From Methanomicrobia archaeon (GTDB taxonomy: Archaea > Halobacteriota > Bog-38 > Methanoflorentales > Methanoflorentaceae): a DNA stretch of 64,000 nt. The DNA is taken from contig JACTTZ010000004.1 in the NCBI GenBank assembly GCA_015660915.1, forward strand, positions 62,001-126,000, read 5' to 3'. Below are positions 34,106 to 64,000 of the stretch, one piece after another. A program made the position numbers and the translations under genes. Each line of letters starts with the position of its first letter. Positions within the stretch are counted from its first letter, which is position 1. The notes beneath the pieces were generated by a model. That model was given only the letters and a program-made list of their open reading frames with translations, searched no databases and was not told the origin of the DNA.

Positions 34106-35140
34106 TCACAAAGAATCAAAAAAAGCTGGCCAGAAGGGATCTTGCCCTGGTATTTCGAGCGGAGCGATCGTCCCGTCACGTCGCTCAACTATCCTCTTTC
34201 CTACGTCATCTATAACCTTTCCGACAATCGATGCGTCTATGCCTGCCGCACGTAGCTTGTGTACGAGCGCATTTGAACGGTTTGGTCTGGCTGTGATCAG
34301 CAAAGAGCCTTCAGCTATGGCGGCGATAGGATCGATTTCAAACGCCTCACAAACCATTCTTACTTCGTCTGGATAGACGAACGCTGCCTCGTGTATCTCC
34401 ATGCCGACTTCGCTAGCGCTCGCTATCTCGAAGAGGCCACCGATAACTCCGCCTTCCGTCGCGTCGTGCATCGCGGTCACGCCTCCTGACTCCATTGCCA
34501 ACAAGGCATCTGCCACCACCGTCATCTGCTTGCAGAGTGCCTTTGCCTTGTCCACGAGAGATTGAGGATATCTCTCCAGGAGCTGCTTTTCCTTGATAAC
34601 TGAAAGGATTCCAGCCGTTTCTATTGCCGGTCCCTTCGTAAGAATTACATCATCTTCAGGCGTCGCGCCGGCTGGCGTGACATAACCGTGCTTATCAGCG
34701 ACAGCAAATACCGTTACGCCGCCTATGGTGGGTGCAGCAAAGCCCGGATAATACCCCGTATGACCACCAACAATCGCAATTTCGAGCTCCAAGGCCGCCC
34801 TATGAATAGCGTCCACTATCGTACGAAAGTCCTCTTCCTTCGTCTCGGGAGGCATCAAAAGCGAATACGTCATGTATCTCGGCTTAACGCCCATGACCGC
34901 TACGTCGCTCGCCCCTATATGAACCGTGTACCATCCAAACATCTCCAAGGGCTGTTGTGGGATGGCGAAGATCGGATCCTCTGCAATTATAAGAACCCTG
35001 TCGTTTCCAATGTCGATAACCCCCGCGTCAACGCCCGTCTTCGGCGGAACGATGACCGTTTCATCCGACTTTCCTAAACGCGGGAGTAGGAAGGAGGTGA
35101 AGGTGTCTAGGTCTATCTTTCCAATTTTAGTGCGTCTCAC
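34106..35140 (-). CDS. AIR-synthase-fold protein (PurM/HypE/ThiL-like)
   Basis: About 344 residues of the PurM superfamily, ATP-dependent enzymes that include AIR synthase, HypE, ThiL and SelD. DAGVIDIGND and IAEDPIF form the N-terminal nucleotide region, VGGHTGYYPG and TKGPAIETAG follow, and AMHDATEGGVIGGLFEIA is the Gly-rich HypE-type loop. The archaeal HypE-like group (COG1973) fits best; the C-terminal Cys of true HypE is absent. GTG 35140 follows GAGG and overlaps the ThiN gene end by 14 bp, so the two are coupled. The link to ThiN suggests thiamine phosphate metabolism. Confidence 0.75.
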   Translation of the reverse strand: MRRTKIGKIDLDTFTSFLLPRLGKSDETVIVPPKTGVDAGVIDIGNDRVLIIAEDPIFAIPQQPLEMFGWYTVHIGASDVAVMGVKPRYMTYSLLMPPETKEEDFRTIVDAIHRAALELEIAIVGGHTGYYPGFAAPTIGGVTVFAVADKHGYVTPAGATPEDDVILTKGPAIETAGILSVIKEKQLLERYPQSLVDKAKALCKQMTVVADALLAMESGGVTAMHDATEGGVIGGLFEIASASEVGMEIHEAAFVYPDEVRMVCEAFEIDPIAAIAEGSLLITARPNRSNALVHKLRAAGIDASIVGKVIDDVGKRIVERRDGTIAPLEIPGQDPFWPAFFDSL

Positions 35141-35714
35141 AATAGCGCCTCGCAATCTCACAAATCTTCTCTACAACCTCAATGGGATCCCGCCCAATGA
35201 GCACCGACACGGGTTCCTTCCCGACAGCGCCCGTTTCATAGAAGATCTTAGGCACGCGACCTCCGGCGGCATCTATTGCTTCCTGAACTTTCCACGGCAT
35301 TGACGCGCCCTCTGCTTCCTTGATCTCATCTGGTTCATTTCTTCGGTCAATCACACTAAAAACCCAGCCTTTGGCTTCGCAGTACTTTTCAAGCCACGCG
35401 GCGAGGGCCGGGTTGTTGGCAAAGTTCACGCCTGCCCTTAAACTCGGATCGGTCTTGCCTATCTCGACCATAAGCCTGGCCATGTGGCTGGACGCTCCGA
35501 ACTTGATCTTGCCTGCTGCGTGAGGAAGACCGTTCACGACGGTTATGCGTCCGTCTATCCCGAGCACGTCATGTTTGTCATGCGCACTGGGCTGAGCATA
35601 AACGAGGTTGGTTCTGACTTCAGGAATCAGGGACGCGAACTCTTTGCATCCCTCAAGGAGATTCACTGCAACAGCCATTTTTCCGCACATTTGAACTTCA
35701 TTGTAAGGCTTCAT
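35127..35714 (-). CDS. thiN: Stand-alone ThiN (thiamine-phosphate synthase type) domain
   Basis: A 195-residue protein. CKEFASLIPEVRTNLVYAQ, FGASSHMARLMVEI and the RRNEPDEIKEAEGASMPW segment, followed by a conserved PKIFYETGAVGKEP, are ThiN signatures. ThiN joins HMP pyrophosphate and thiazole phosphate in archaea lacking ThiE; it is usually fused to ThiD or to a DNA-binding domain (ThiR). Here it stands alone, first in an operon with an AIR-synthase-like partner. Confidence 0.85.
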   Translation of the reverse strand: MKPYNEVQMCGKMAVAVNLLEGCKEFASLIPEVRTNLVYAQPSAHDKHDVLGIDGRITVVNGLPHAAGKIKFGASSHMARLMVEIGKTDPSLRAGVNFANNPALAAWLEKYCEAKGWVFSVIDRRNEPDEIKEAEGASMPWKVQEAIDAAGGRVPKIFYETGAVGKEPVSVLIGRDPIEVVEKICEIARRYCETH

Positions 35715-47960: not shown

Positions 47961-48500
47961 ATGCAGCAGAAAGAAGAGATTGAAAGCCTTTTGAAAACGT
48001 GCGAGACGGCGAAAGACAGCGTCGACGCATTTTTGCGCAGCATCAATGATTTTATCGCCGTGGTCGAAGAGCTGCCTGCGGTCGCGAGGCCGCTCGTGCG
48101 GCGAGACTTGGAGTCAAACACGGGCATGAGCGCCGACGAATGGAAGGCGTTTTTAGAGCGGCTCGGCACGCGCTACAGCTCGATTTATGATGCGGCACGG
48201 CGCGTGGCTGACGCGTTGGCCAAGGAGGGTAACGACGTAGAGGTCGCCGCAGGCACGGAAGCATTGAAAGAGGTTTCCACGCCACTCATAGAAGGTGCAG
48301 AAACTGCCATTGAAGAACTGGAGACGATGGCGTCATACATGGAGGGGCTTCCTGGGAAGATCAACATGGTGCCCGACGCGTTCCTTAATGCAGAGGCGCG
48401 CGACGAACTGATCACCTCCGTGCCTGGACGCGTCGAACGGGCTCGGGCGCTGAAGGAGCTCCTCGAGAAGACAAAAGGGGAACTGAGCGTGGTAACTTGA
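47961..48500 (+). CDS. Alpha-helical (coiled-coil) protein, unknown function
   Basis: A 179-residue soluble protein predicted almost wholly helical, with long charged stretches (EEIESLLKTCETAKDSVDAF, ALKEVSTPLIEGAETAIEEL). No catalytic motif or domain is recognised. Its place right behind the GerW-like gene suggests a partner. Its stop lies only a few bases before the truncated lasso B1 frame, so the latter's start was probably removed by a deletion ending here. Confidence 0.6.
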   Translation: MQQKEEIESLLKTCETAKDSVDAFLRSINDFIAVVEELPAVARPLVRRDLESNTGMSADEWKAFLERLGTRYSSIYDAARRVADALAKEGNDVEVAAGTEALKEVSTPLIEGAETAIEELETMASYMEGLPGKINMVPDAFLNAEARDELITSVPGRVERARALKELLEKTKGELSVVT

Positions 48501-48503
48501 TAG

Positions 48504-48740
48504 CTTCCGGTTGATAACGCCTGGTTTCTTCTGGCCCTCAAGAACGGCGTCTACTACGGTCTCGACACGGTCAGCGCCCGAATCTGGGACCTCATCCAGG
48601 AACCACGGACGCTACGTGCCGTGCGCGACACCCTACTCGATGAGTATGACGTCGACGCGGATCGCTGTAAGCGTGACCTTATCGCACTCCTTACAGAGCT
48701 TGCTGAGCACGATCTGCTCACCGTCATCGATGATGCTTAA
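48504..48740 (+). pseudogene. Lasso-peptide B1-type RRE (PqqD-like), N-terminally truncated
   Basis: The frame, open after a TAG at 48501-48503, encodes ~78 residues that match PqqD-like RiPP recognition elements: WFLLALKNGVYYGLDTVSAR, IWDLI, then VRDTLLDEYDVDADRCKRDL and LLTELAEHDLL. The first ~15-20 residues and any start codon are missing. In lasso-peptide operons this B1 protein binds the precursor leader and passes it to B2 and C. Remnants of exactly those genes follow. Confidence 0.75.
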
Positions 48741-48795
48741 GGTTCATCGGTTTCTTGGGTTATCGTCGGGAGAGCAATGGCGACTCGGTACGTTA
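48733..48795 (+). pseudogene. N-terminal scrap of a lasso-peptide B2 protease gene
   Basis: An ATG at 48733 overlaps the B1 stop and encodes MLKVHRFLGLSSGEQWRL, which resembles the usual start of transglutaminase-like lasso B2 proteins (an RRFLRLSxxERWLL-like helix). After ~20 codons the similarity ends and the next gene's ribosome site begins at ~48835. The catalytic Cys-His-Asp domain is gone. The call rests on a short match plus operon order. Confidence 0.45.
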
Positions 48796-48847
48796 TGCAC
48801 AAAGGTATCCGTAGCTGCGAGATTACAGCATTCAGAGGAGGTCAGAG

Positions 48848-49285
48848 ATGAGTGGCATCGCTGGTATTTATCACGTCGATGGCAAAACCGTTGATCCGAG
48901 TGAACTCCGTCGCATGACCGAGCGCCTTGCTCATCGCGGCCCCGATGGCTCTGATACGTGGCACGAAGGGCCGATTGGTCTCGGCCACCTCATGCTCTGG
49001 ACGACTCCTGAGTCTCTGCATGAGAAGCTTCCGCTAGTCAGCGGCGCGCTTGGTATCACCTCCGATGCCCGTATCGATAACCGCGATGAGCTCATCACCG
49101 CGCTCAACATCGCCACCCCGCCAGCAGAGATCACCGACAGCGCCCTCACCCTCGCTGCCTACGAGCGCTGGGGCGAGTCGTGCGTCGAGCACCTCATCGG
49201 CGACTTCGCCTTTGCGATCCACCGTGACGCGTTTCACTCACCGTTGAGTACCGTCACAGCTATCAATGAGGTTTCTCTAACTTAA
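48848..49285 (+). pseudogene. N-terminal fragment of a lasso-peptide cyclase (asparagine-synthetase-like)
   Basis: 145 residues survive of a normally ~600-residue protein. SGIAGIYHVDGKTVDPSELR, LAHRGPDGSDTWHEGPIGLG, LMLWTTPESLHEKLPL and ARIDNRDELI are the glutaminase-like domain of lasso cyclases; residue 2 is Ser instead of the catalytic Cys. After FAIHRD the match ends and a stop follows. The ATP-dependent cyclase domain is absent. GAGGAGG precedes the ATG. Confidence 0.8.
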
Positions 49286-49313
49286 CGTGAGATTGAACTG
49301 ATCTCCTGTTTTG

Positions 49314-49493
49314 CTAGAAATCGCCCGATGAGGATAGGAAGATGCTTTGTCGTCCGAATTCGCTATAATCAGATCGGGCGAGAGACGCACAACGAGGCTC
49401 GCCATATTGGGCGAGACGATTGATCATGCGTTGGAGTTCAGACTGGGCGACGGTGCTCCCGTCAAGGCGATAAATGCCGATAATAGCAGTCAT
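49314..49493 (-). pseudogene. Second lasso-cyclase fragment, opposite strand
   Basis: A 59-codon frame from ATG 49493 begins TAIIGIYRLDGSTVAQSELQ then RMINRLAQYGEP, clearly related to the first residues of the cyclase fragment at 48848 (SGIAGIYHVDGKTVDPSELR, RMTERLAHRGPD). It degenerates after ~40 codons. TTTAAATATG ~35 bp upstream is a promoter-like element and AGTCACCAGTGACT (49498-49511) a near-perfect palindrome between them. Confidence 0.7.
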
Positions 49494-49497
49494 CTAA

Positions 49498-49511
49498 AGT
49501 CACCAGTGACT
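49498..49511. promoter_or_regulatory. Palindrome upstream of the second cyclase fragment
   Basis: AGTCAC-CA-GTGACT is a 6-2-6 palindrome located between the TATA-like TTTAAATATG (minus strand) and ATG 49493, where an operator would lie. Confidence 0.35.
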
Positions 49512-49722
49512 ACGGTAGTTTTCTAAGGTCGCATATTTAAACGCACCTGTGCCGGTGAGCATCGCCACGCTCGTGTCTTGGAAGGCAGAACGATATTTGA
49601 TGCAATTCACGTGACGAGCAAGCCACGTTTTCGGGTGTCGTTGCTAAATACTGATAACACTGTTGTTTAGATCTCAGGCAGGCAGACAATAAGCAACGTT
49701 CCGACGCCGTGTCTTCATTCCG

Positions 49723-50664
49723 CTAGAGGTCAATGCTCCGCTCTCCGAGACCCGTGCTATCGTTGGAGGTGAGAGGTCGCTGTCGGGCAGCATCGGCGAT
49801 CATTTGTGCCACGTGAGGAAGGGTAACGAGATTACGAGGAACAATCACCTTACAAACGCCTGTAGTCTTAACAAGGGCTGCACATTGGTGAACGTGCGTA
49901 GCTGCGTCTGAGCCATCGAGCAATTTGACCGCATACGAATGCTGAATGAGCGCAATGAACGCTTCTTGTGCACTAAGTGATTCAATGGCTGCCTCGTCCC
50001 CTTCGCGCAGCACGTAGACATTTCTGAGGGGAAGGCGCCGCATCGAAAATCTTTCAGTCACGGGAAAAACACGTTTCTCATAATTGTGCTCGACTTTGCT
50101 CAGTGTGGCAGGGTCGTACGTTAGTGCAGAGAGCGTTTCCGGCCAGACGTTTATCTGAGGAGAGCTCGGAAAGACGATTGGTACGACACCATCGAACTCT
50201 ATTGACGTGACGTCATCAGCTACGATATCGTGGCCCAGTGCATAGAGCGCGAGAGCAAGGCTTGATTTGCCCTGCCCCGGGTTCCCAGCAAATGCAGCAA
50301 CTCCGTCATTTATGGCGACAGCGCTTGCGTGCAAGATCAATCGCCCGCGCTGATGGAGCAGGGCAGCAAAAGCTGGGCCCAGAAGAAGCTGTCGAAGCGT
50401 TCGATCGTCGGTTTTTTGAGCTGGGTCGACTATGATATCTCGCCCCTTACGCACGAGAATGGTTCCAATCCCGTCCCAAAACAGGAATACGCCCTGCGCG
50501 GTCACCCTGAAGTTTGTCCCCGCTTTCGTTGCTTCTGACGCGTGTGGAAGTGCGCCGATGTAACCCAGTCGAATAATAACGTCCGCGGGCTCTCTGCTTT
50601 GGGTGCGGTTTGACAAGGGAATGGCCGATGATATCCTAAGGCCATACTCTTCATACGTAAACAT
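49723..50664 (-). CDS. HPr-kinase-like protein of the lasso-peptide type
   Basis: A 313-residue protein that looks complete. A beta-rich N-terminus (YEEYGLRISSAIPL) precedes LHASAVAINDGVAAFAGNPGQGKSS, with the Walker A loop GNPGQGKSS, and HDIVADDVTSIEF, the HPr-kinase metal-binding Asp pair. Homologues occur in lasso-peptide and other RiPP loci, where one was shown to phosphorylate the precursor. Here the cyclase fragment at 49314 lies downstream on the same strand. A candidate peptide gene is divergent from it. Confidence 0.82.
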   Translation of the reverse strand: MFTYEEYGLRISSAIPLSNRTQSREPADVIIRLGYIGALPHASEATKAGTNFRVTAQGVFLFWDGIGTILVRKGRDIIVDPAQKTDDRTLRQLLLGPAFAALLHQRGRLILHASAVAINDGVAAFAGNPGQGKSSLALALYALGHDIVADDVTSIEFDGVVPIVFPSSPQINVWPETLSALTYDPATLSKVEHNYEKRVFPVTERFSMRRLPLRNVYVLREGDEAAIESLSAQEAFIALIQHSYAVKLLDGSDAATHVHQCAALVKTTGVCKVIVPRNLVTLPHVAQMIADAARQRPLTSNDSTGLGERSIDL

Positions 50665-50722
50665 AATGACCCGTTTAGCGAATTTGACGCTTTTTTCGCA
50701 AACGCTGTGACAGACCGGCGAC

Positions 50723-50730
50723 TATAAAAG
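50723..50730 (+). promoter_or_regulatory. TATA box (TATAAAAG) facing a 34-codon ORF
   Basis: A consensus archaeal TATA box lies 42 bp before the ATG at 50765, giving a leader of ~15 nt. On the other strand it reads CTTTTATAG and might also serve the HPr-kinase-like gene. Confidence 0.45.
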
Positions 50731-50764
50731 ACTGTCCATAGGAAGTGTCTCCTGTCCGTTCGTG

Positions 50765-50869
50765 ATGCTTGATGATTCTTGCAAAAAAAACGAGAAGCCC
50801 ACAGCGCTTAAATATTATCTTGTAATGGGCGTTGCGCTACCTGATGTCGATAATTGGAAATGGTATTAA
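50765..50869 (+). CDS. Candidate precursor peptide (34 aa), speculative
   Basis: The ORF encodes a 34-residue peptide with a charged first half (DDSCKKNEKP) and a second half GVALPDVDNWKWY. If cleaved before Gly, the core would have Gly1 and Asp8, which fits a lasso macrolactam ring of eight residues. Against this, the leader lacks the usual YxxP motif and the penultimate Thr. The good TATA box upstream and the position beside the HPr-kinase-like gene are the only context support. Confidence 0.25.
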   Translation: MLDDSCKKNEKPTALKYYLVMGVALPDVDNWKWY

Positions 50870-50970
50870 GGCAGCTTGACGGTGTACGTTGATGAGCTCT
50901 GCTGTCTAGTTCTGCTAAGCACAGGCTTGACACGTCAGCTCAACGGATAGCTAGCTTGAGCACGCGATTG

Positions 50971-51404
50971 ATGTTTATCAATGCGATTGATGCGACGCGA
51001 CCGGCTGAGGTAGTGCACGCGCCGCTGGGACTGGGGTATCTACGAGTTCTTTGAGACAGGATTTTGAACCAGGCTTCTTCACGTTTAAAGTAGTCGACCG
51101 TGACGTTGAGCGTGAGATGGAGGCGTTTCATCCCGACGTTGCGGCAATATCAGCAACCACGCCAAACTACGGCAGGGCAGCCACCTACGCACACATCGCC
51201 AAAACCTATGAGCTGCCCGTGTTAATAGGGGGTGTGCATATCTCGACACTGCCGTCCTCCCTCGCTGACGACATGGACGTAGGAATTGTCGGGGAGGGCG
51301 AGCGCACCATAGTTGACCTCTTCCGGCTCTATGAAGCAGATGGCTGCTTTGCGACTGATGCGCTGGCGCACACCGGGTACCCACCATATAGCCTGATCGC
51401 GTGA
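50971..51404 (+). pseudogene. B12-binding radical SAM protein, frameshifted and truncated
   Basis: From ATG 50971 the frame gives FINAIDATRPAEVVHAPLGL and GYLRVL then a TGA. In another frame it continues LRQDFEPGFFTFKVVDRDVE, HPDVAAISATTPNYGRA, LIGGVHISTLPSSLAD and IVGEGERTIVDLF, the cobalamin-binding domain of B12-dependent radical SAM enzymes. One indel near 51037-51041 would join them. The radical SAM domain that should follow is missing after PPYSLIA. It lies beside the lasso remnants and may belong to the same lost RiPP locus. Confidence 0.75.
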
Positions 51405-51701
51405 TCGAAGAGGCGCACCGACGGTTGCCGTTATGTCCCAGATACTTTGGTCTGCAGTGTGTACGACCCCCGGAGCGAAGAGCCGCTGCCTTCGAGCAGC
51501 TTGTCGGAAGTTGCGGAGGGTTGGACGGTGGTCTGGTCAAGCACAGCGTGTTGCATCCACTGAGTGGCGTCTAGACCCGAAATAAATAACGGATGAGGAA
51601 AAGACTAAGAATTGAAAGGAGTTTGCATTCTGTTCATGCAACGGGGAGATGCGCTGGCCTATTGGAGCGTGCGCATAGATCAACAGAGTTCGCTGCCCCC
51701 C
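51405..51701. other. Gap between the radical SAM remnant and SepCysS
   Basis: Frames here are short and Arg/Cys-rich. Possibly this is further debris of the radical SAM gene, but no motif could be matched. Confidence 0.3.
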
Positions 51702-63377: not shown

Positions 63378-64000
63378 ATGGCTATCTATGGCAAACGAAA
63401 AAAGCAGATTCAAGAGGTAATGCGAGAAAAGGGCGTCGATGCGATGCTCATTGCAGGGGCTGAGAACTACTACTACATCACGGGAGATTATCGGCGACAG
63501 GCTCGAATGCTGTTCTATAAAGACGCTGACCCTACTATCATCGTGTTCCAGCCCGAGGTGGAGCAGGTTCGCGCGAGCACGTGGGTGAACGACATCCGCG
63601 GCTGGAGCAACGTCAACGAGCTCATGCAAAACTTCTTTAACGCGATGCGGGAAGGTGACCTTCGTAAAGCGACCGTTGGTTTTGATACGCACACCGCTCC
63701 CGGATTCGAAGTTTTTCGGTTCAGAAAGCTCAATCCCGAGATCAATATGGTCGAAAACGACGAGATCATGAGCGAGCTTCGCATGGTGAAGTCGGCTGAC
63801 GAAATAGCGCGCATGAAAAAGACTGCTCAGGCCGCAGAGCTCGGGATGATGGCAGCAGCAGATGCGCTCGTCGCCGGCGCAACAGAGAACGACGTTGCGC
63901 GTGAGGCTGAATACGCCTTGCGAAAGGCGGGTTCGGAGCGTCTGGGGTTTCTCACCTTTGTGAACTCGGGTGAGCGCTCGCTCGGCTTGCACGGATTTGT
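63378..64000 (+). CDS. M24-family Xaa-Pro aminopeptidase (partial, runs off the window)
   Basis: The first 207 residues of a creatinase/prolidase-type peptidase. The N-terminal domain (KGVDAMLIAGAENYYYITGD) is typical, and ELRMVKSADEIARMKKTAQA opens the catalytic pita-bread domain; LTFVNSGERSLGLHG is reached near the edge. The metal ligands lie beyond 64000. GGAGG stands 5 nt before the ATG. It removes N-terminal residues preceding proline. Confidence 0.88.
   Translation, partial: MAIYGKRKKQIQEVMREKGVDAMLIAGAENYYYITGDYRRQARMLFYKDADPTIIVFQPEVEQVRASTWVNDIRGWSNVNELMQNFFNAMREGDLRKATVGFDTHTAPGFEVFRFRKLNPEINMVENDEIMSELRMVKSADEIARMKKTAQAAELGMMAAADALVAGATENDVAREAEYALRKAGSERLGFLTFVNSGERSLGLHGF

Follow-up and report, generated by a model that had tools for sequence, protein, structure and literature searches.

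A truncated lasso-peptide locus with an intact kinase at a rearrangement junction, and scattered full-length pathway genes, in a methanogen genome

The window analyzed here is a stretch of 64,000 nucleotides (C18:62001-126000) from the draft genome of a Methanomicrobia archaeon (2.04 Mb, 27 contigs, 90.8% complete), and all its lasso-peptide material is confined to one short segment (Table 1), where three genes reduced to fragments succeed one another on the forward strand. The first of these is a B1/RRE remnant, to which PF05402 matches at 48522-48719 on the forward strand with 62.3 bits (cut-off 23.4; E 9.9e-17), the match covering positions 2-67 of the 67 in the profile. Stop codons directly precede the opening of its frame, and ATG, GTG and TTG are all absent ahead of the conserved domain. 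The best named family of this RRE is lasso PqqD, NF033536, at 57.5 bits, a score under the cut-off of 80, as is expected when a fragment is held to a whole-protein threshold. At the amino acid level, it matches the intact B1 on contig C4 at 67%, and its closest DNA match, 82.8% over 151 bp, is an RRE fragment at C4:74251-74399. A candidate ATG for B2, at 48730 or 48733, overlaps the RRE stop; the window sequence MLKVHRFLGLSSGEQWRL aligns to MSKAIRFLSLTSAEQRRL of the intact B2 with a score of 45, which none of 2000 shuffles reached, and the similarity to the C4 B2 extends to about 48834, giving approximately 100 bp of B2-like DNA.

The third fragment, a cyclase, begins with ATG at 48848; similarity stops at 49228 and the frame continues to 49285. 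Residues 1-125 score 198 bits with the lasso cyclase model NF033535 versus 54 bits with the asparagine synthase model TIGR01536, and the fragment carries Ser2, not Cys2, so that an ordinary asparagine synthetase is rejected as its source; the match to the intact C at C4:61344-63248 is 73-74% (amino acids). The second cyclase scrap, read from 49493 to 49401, is recognized by NF033535 at 17.5 bits (E 0.0012), matches the intact C by tblastn at 7e-5 with 55% at the amino acid level, and has a DNA match at C4:61297-61429. A first-pass annotation of this DNA had described the start-less PqqD-like RRE, the B2-like opening across its stop, a cyclase of the lasso rather than the ordinary type, the B1-B2-C order with junctions kept between cut-down genes (window 48504-49285) and, on the opposite strand, a complete HPr-kinase-like gene (49723-50664) with another cyclase fragment (49493-49401); the searches bear out this description, except that the 145 cyclase residues claimed to follow a strong ribosome site shrink to about the first 127, beyond which the tail is unrelated. 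Toward the far end of the inserted segment, adjoining SepCysS, positions 51051-51404 read as the N-terminal fragment of a B12-binding/radical-SAM-like protein, possibly a truncated gene.

Table 1. Features of the window (plain coordinates) and of contigs C4 and C19 of the same genome.
Feature	Location	Strand	Details
Segment with all lasso material of the window	48503-51430		absent from sister genomes' junctions; flanked by two blocks that lie at separate places in sister genomes
B1/RRE (PqqD-like) remnant	48504-48740	+	almost the entire domain; N-terminus and start codon absent
B2 protease remnant	48730-48834	+	start codon overlaps B1 stop; about the first 20 codons recognizable, rest deleted
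Ribosome-binding site AGGAGGT of cyclase fragment	48836-48842	+	from sequence
Lasso cyclase (C) fragment	48848-49285	+	residues 1-127 of glutaminase-like domain, then unrelated tail; synthetase domain gone
Second lasso cyclase N-terminal scrap, about 31 residues	49401-49493	-	NF033535, tblastn and DNA match
Lasso-precursor kinase K, 313 aa, HPr-kinase-like, intact	49723-50664	-	profile, sister and lasso-operon kinase matches
Tail scrap of 688-aa gene (gene itself on C4)	51410-51641	+	SepCysS-side edge of rearrangement
Intact C (cyclase)	C4:61344-63248	+	NF033535 777 bits, cut-off 525
Candidate precursor A, 41-codon ORF MDNDKRLWSTPHLVTLGDIQTLTENVEGDSPADDPYGSYLP	C4:63295-63420		directly after C; starts 46 bp past C stop
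Intact N, nucleotidyltransferase-like (glycosyl/nucleotidyl-transferase-like)	C4:74665-75852	-	PF14907 202 bits
Intact B2	C4:81406-81846	-	NF033537 98.2 bits, cut-off 33; PF13471 73 bits
Intact B1	C4:81839-82141	-	PF05402 70.6 bits; NF033536 73 bits, cut-off 80
Exporter D	C19:217554-219422		77% identity to D of sister cluster

The neighbors of the debris have exchanged partners. To its left, after a GerW-like gene, lies a gene for a 179-aa protein (47961-48500), which in five of the five informative sister genomes lies about 20-220 bp ahead of a gene for a 780-aa ribonucleotide reductase. To its right, the window encodes SepCysS, an archaeal enzyme, and in the sister genomes G001, G005 and G006 the SepCysS gene has a phosphoesterase gene before it (the reductase and phosphoesterase labels are readings of the translations). 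In the genome studied here, the 179-aa gene faces SepCysS, in the window, and the phosphoesterase side faces the reductase, on C4. By blastn against the sister junctions, homology stops on the left of the window at 48502 (G002) and resumes on the right at 51431-51450 (G005, G001); on C4, the corresponding gap runs from about 74069-74100 to 77499-77504. Lasso material fills both gaps, namely, the B1, B2 and C scraps with K in the window, and three RRE scraps, the intact N, an N scrap and a SepCysS scrap on C4. The tail scrap of the 688-aa gene matches C4:73821-74059 at 72% and the sister SepCysS junctions at 75-76% (DNA). The flanks of the debris are unrelated neighbors brought together by a genome-specific rearrangement, and the simplest reading of the junctions would be that lasso gene copies recombined with one another or were inserted at the breaks. 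The SepCysS fragment within the C4 debris (C4:76412-76693) matches the window SepCysS at 65% (amino acids) and 86% over 199 bp (DNA), and a second full SepCysS gene is located on C24. The gene mcrA is present in this genome as well as in four sister genomes, in accord with the archaeal host recognized in the first-pass annotation.

Family searches of the whole genome recovered three more RREs and one B2 on C4, with a full asparagine-synthase-like gene at a distance of 18 kb. In the cyclase tree, the intact C4 cyclase groups in the lasso clade (100/100), apart from the Cys2 asparagine synthetases; the tree does not decide between bacterial transfer and another origin of the archaeal cyclases. 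The intact B1 matches TbiB1 (PDB 5V1U) at 1.8e-15, and a second N is found on C19, near D. Genome-wide, then, there are a B1 of the lasso PqqD type, a B2 leader peptidase, a cyclase of the lasso subfamily and a precursor, and the lasso parts are spread over three contigs, at C4:61-63k, C4:74-76k, C4:81-82k, on C18 (the window) and at C19:217k, rather than clustered in one operon; such clustering is customary for lasso pathways, not demanded by their chemistry. With intact C, A, B1, B2, N and D outside the window, total loss of the pathway as gene content is excluded.

The C-A module is flanked by a 71-bp direct repeat (C4:61087-61157 and 63503-63573, 98.6% identical), which is the 3' end of a CPBP-type protease gene, and a 51-bp cyclase duplicate (96%) lies just ahead of the second repeat copy; judged from these repeats, the module looks like a recent duplicative insertion. 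The candidate precursor presents its motif in canonical register, W(-17)xxP(-14)xL(-12), G(-8), T(-2) and D9 (positions counted as in PMC10368454), that is, the YxxPxL leader, Thr(-2) and Asp/Glu at core 7-9, with W for Y, a replacement also seen in Bryobacterales precursors. It is the unique strict-register match in 236 kb of six-frame sequence, where 0.3 would be expected from codon-shuffled sequence, and the precursor profile, in which it is itself included, recovers it genome-wide at 1e-13. Bacterial relatives have a similar precursor at the equivalent place, just past C. The core, NVEGDSPADDPYGSYLP, opens with Asn1, an unusual residue, contains Ser at 6 and 14, and ends in Pro, with the nearest Ser three residues in and the C-terminal Ser absent. 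Its calculated mass is 1794.76 Da in linear form and 1776.75 Da when cyclized, rising to 1856.71 Da with a phosphate and 2018.77 Da with a hexose added.

The window K is the sole copy found in this genome (a single match in G000). It matches K of the sister contig G006:C52 at 66% (amino acids) and is 30-40% identical to the kinases within bacterial lasso operons. Its hit to TIGR04352/04355 is weak, 33 bits under a cut-off of 200, and membership in the NCBIfam HprK_rel_A/B subfamilies is rejected on these scores. Across 13 aligned lasso-type kinases, conservation is complete at H112, K133 and D150 and almost complete at S134 and D151. In BsfK, a biochemically characterized kinase that phosphorylates its lasso precursor, the residues are H148, K169, S170, D186 and D187 (PMC10368454), and the window K has the same spacing, H-21-K and K-17-D. 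The AlphaFold model (pLDDT 88) adopts the HPrK/PEPCK fold, and the protein has the features of an HPrK-like P-loop kinase with His-Lys-Asp-Asp, of the PadeK/ThcoK/BsfK type. No precursor was found beside the window kinase; in relatives, such kinases are genomically linked with A, C and N, which supports phosphorylation of a lasso precursor Ser as its putative activity.

As anticipated in the first-pass annotation, intact or near-intact lasso clusters exist in sister genomes; the intact locus was also looked for there beside GerW or SepCysS, where that annotation had suggested searching, and is absent from these places. The G005 and G006 clusters include two cyclases, a precursor, K, D, B1 and B2, with some copies broken, and N is frameshifted in G005. 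Because some of the sister copies are broken, decay is ongoing in the genus, which thus carries several lasso gene sets differing in their state of repair (one genome of the species was compared and the sister genomes are drafts, so that the absence of K or B2 in some of them is not firm). One G006 locus (L077, G006:C52, 282-3299) contains two tandem lasso kinases with an intact N adjoining and, between the kinases on the opposite strand, an apparently truncated precursor. A membrane gene with the motif LIxQDNxExRxTGG, followed by a gene of about 190 aa (C4:85502-86776, C19:214849-216105 and L023:8012-9271), is a repeated neighbor of lasso parts, both in the genome studied here and in the sister G005, possibly as a partner or as a shared recombination site. 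Farther afield, G171, from another family of the same phylum, has an intact canonical operon, B1-B2-C-A(x4)-K-N-D. Its four tandem precursors, between C and K (L116, G171:C11, region 34860-35660), include one with an internal stop and have a common GTAD..GS core pattern, like that of an acidobacterial precursor. Of 394 genomes of the phylum that were sampled, 14 contain a B2 scoring above the NF033537 cut-off. Among bacterial relatives, the overall arrangement is B1-B2-C-(A)-K, usually with N; the cyanobacterial, Bryobacterales and Omnitrophota loci are B1-B2-C-K with N and mostly with D.

We find it probable that the window segment is the debris of a B1-B2-C-A-K-N-D locus together with the only surviving kinase, lodged at a breakpoint, and that the scattered intact copies act in trans. 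From the established gene identities and integrity, the evolutionary constraint, the catalytic and recognition motifs and the swapped synteny, we infer expression, action in trans, the modification sites and the product in the following scenario. A lasso operon would have been duplicated, broken up and scattered, leaving one intact copy per gene: C and A on C4, B1-B2 on C4, N on C4 (with a second on C19), D on C19, and K in the window. B1 would bind the W..P.L leader of A; K would phosphorylate a precursor Ser, with Ser6 or Ser14 as possible sites; N may attach a sugar to the phosphate; B2 would cleave past the Thr(-2) position; C would close an isopeptide ring between N1 and D9 of the core NVEGDSPADDPYGSYLP; and D would export the product. 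The full proposal, that seven dispersed genes, acting in trans, provide this methanogen with a lasso peptide that is phosphorylated and possibly phosphoglycosylated, after recombination among lasso copies rearranged the chromosome, seems to us to have about an even chance of being correct.

The dispersed parts could instead be recent pseudogenes-to-be of a system that is dead or dying in this species, where a lasso peptide was once made but is no longer. Such an end would fit the cut-down copies of B1, B2, C, N and D found at several genome sites, the D scrap that adjoins B1-B2 on C4, the second, stop-bearing B2-like trace on C16 and the frameshifted N of G005. However, all seven genes (C, A, B1, B2, N, D and K) retain a full-length open copy, and chance survival of all seven intact would be odd had selection ended. 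Moreover, dN/dS against the sister genomes (Nei-Gojobori) is 0.27 for K, 0.14 for B1, 0.31-0.33 for B2, 0.19-0.22 for C, 0.15 for D and 0.19 for N, some of these ratios being rough where dS is near saturation; for these six genes, enzymes and exporter, the range of 0.14-0.33 points to constraint in the genus, yet is compatible with a very recent loss in this species. On balance, extinction of the system appears unlikely. The first-pass annotation had concluded that the lineage "once made" a lasso peptide and that the locus is decayed; decay is apparent at the window site, but not in the genome, and because C, A, B1, B2, N and D persist intact in the latter, on C4 and C19, the pathway may still run.

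Much less probable is an assembly or binning artefact, whereby repeated lasso sequence led to the joining of two unrelated stretches, or the lasso contigs come from contamination. The assembly is indeed a draft of the metagenome type, with related RRE sequence at both odd junctions, but this shared RRE, at only 82.8% over 151 bp, has diverged too far to cause a k-mer misjoin, genes native to the genus make up the flanks on both contigs (54-94% to sister genomes), and C4 and C18 both come from this lineage because C4 genes adjoin the window's SepCysS in sister genomes. That the window pieces form a working mini-locus (RRE, glutaminase-like domain and kinase) for another peptide is hardly credible, given that, for all the almost complete RRE domain, the strong ribosome site of the cyclase piece and the intact kinase, the RRE lacks a start codon, nothing of B2 remains past about 20 codons, the cyclase piece has an unrelated tail in place of its synthetase domain, and there is no precursor near.

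If, as in the dispersed pathway that we favor, the scattered genes work, peptide natural-product pathways can outlast the break-up of their operons, and a methanogen lineage joins the producers of modified lasso peptides. Because the full set occurs at no single site, cluster-based genome mining would call the window locus dead and would miss the scattered pathway. Lasso gene copies sit at both joints of a chromosome rearrangement, and the seven genes, precursor included, make a short list testable in E. coli.

The bsf cluster of Bradymonas sediminis (PMC10368454) consists of the same seven gene types as those of the methanogen, A, B1, B2, C, D, K and N; it shares the YxxPxL leader with P(-14) and L(-12) and the split of B1 from B2, and the H-K-S-D-D residues of the two kinases agree in identity and spacing. 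B1 assists both the kinase and B2 on the precursor, and K phosphorylates a precursor Ser (PMC10368454); in such relatives, ring closure is carried out by C. Whereas bsf is one contiguous bacterial cluster, with Ile(-2), a Gly1-Asp8 ring and phosphorylated Ser3, the methanogen has scattered genes, Thr(-2), a predicted N1-D9 ring and, at Ser6 and Ser14 of the core, putative phosphorylation sites. The psm (PsmK/PsmN) and pade (PadeK/ThcoK) clusters (PMC9266682) likewise employ an HPr-kinase-like tailoring kinase, and psm has the N type found in the methanogen, a nucleotidyltransferase-like protein tied to sugar addition to phosphoserine; in pseudomycoidin, N is tied to the addition of a hexose on the phosphate (PMC9266682). 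Kinases of the PadeK/PsmK type act on a C-terminal Ser, in contrast to the methanogen core, which ends in Pro. The Acidobacteria gp2 operon (QHYR01000020, L053) is B1-B2-C-A-K-N, and the window keeps the B1-B2-C start of that order; identities to the methanogen genes are 46% for the cyclase, 53% for B1, 40% for the kinase and 34% for N, but the acidobacterial operon is contiguous and intact, unlike its methanogen counterpart.

Within archaea, a haloarchaeal lasso cluster with B1, B2 and a kinase has been predicted (PMC10093198), and clusters in Euryarchaeota are attributed to Tietz et al. 2017 in PMC7533575. Together with the G171 operon, these share with the methanogen archaeal hosts and the same enzyme families and, in the case of G171 and the haloarchaeal cluster, the kinase. 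In the open-licence literature, we found no description of a complete K/N-type pathway scattered with debris at swapped junctions, which is weak evidence. The known archaeal clusters are each a single locus, whereas the methanogen genes extend over three contigs, with debris at rearrangement junctions; lasso clusters in archaea are already known, and the unusual feature of this genome is a complete kinase/N-type pathway whose genes are dispersed.
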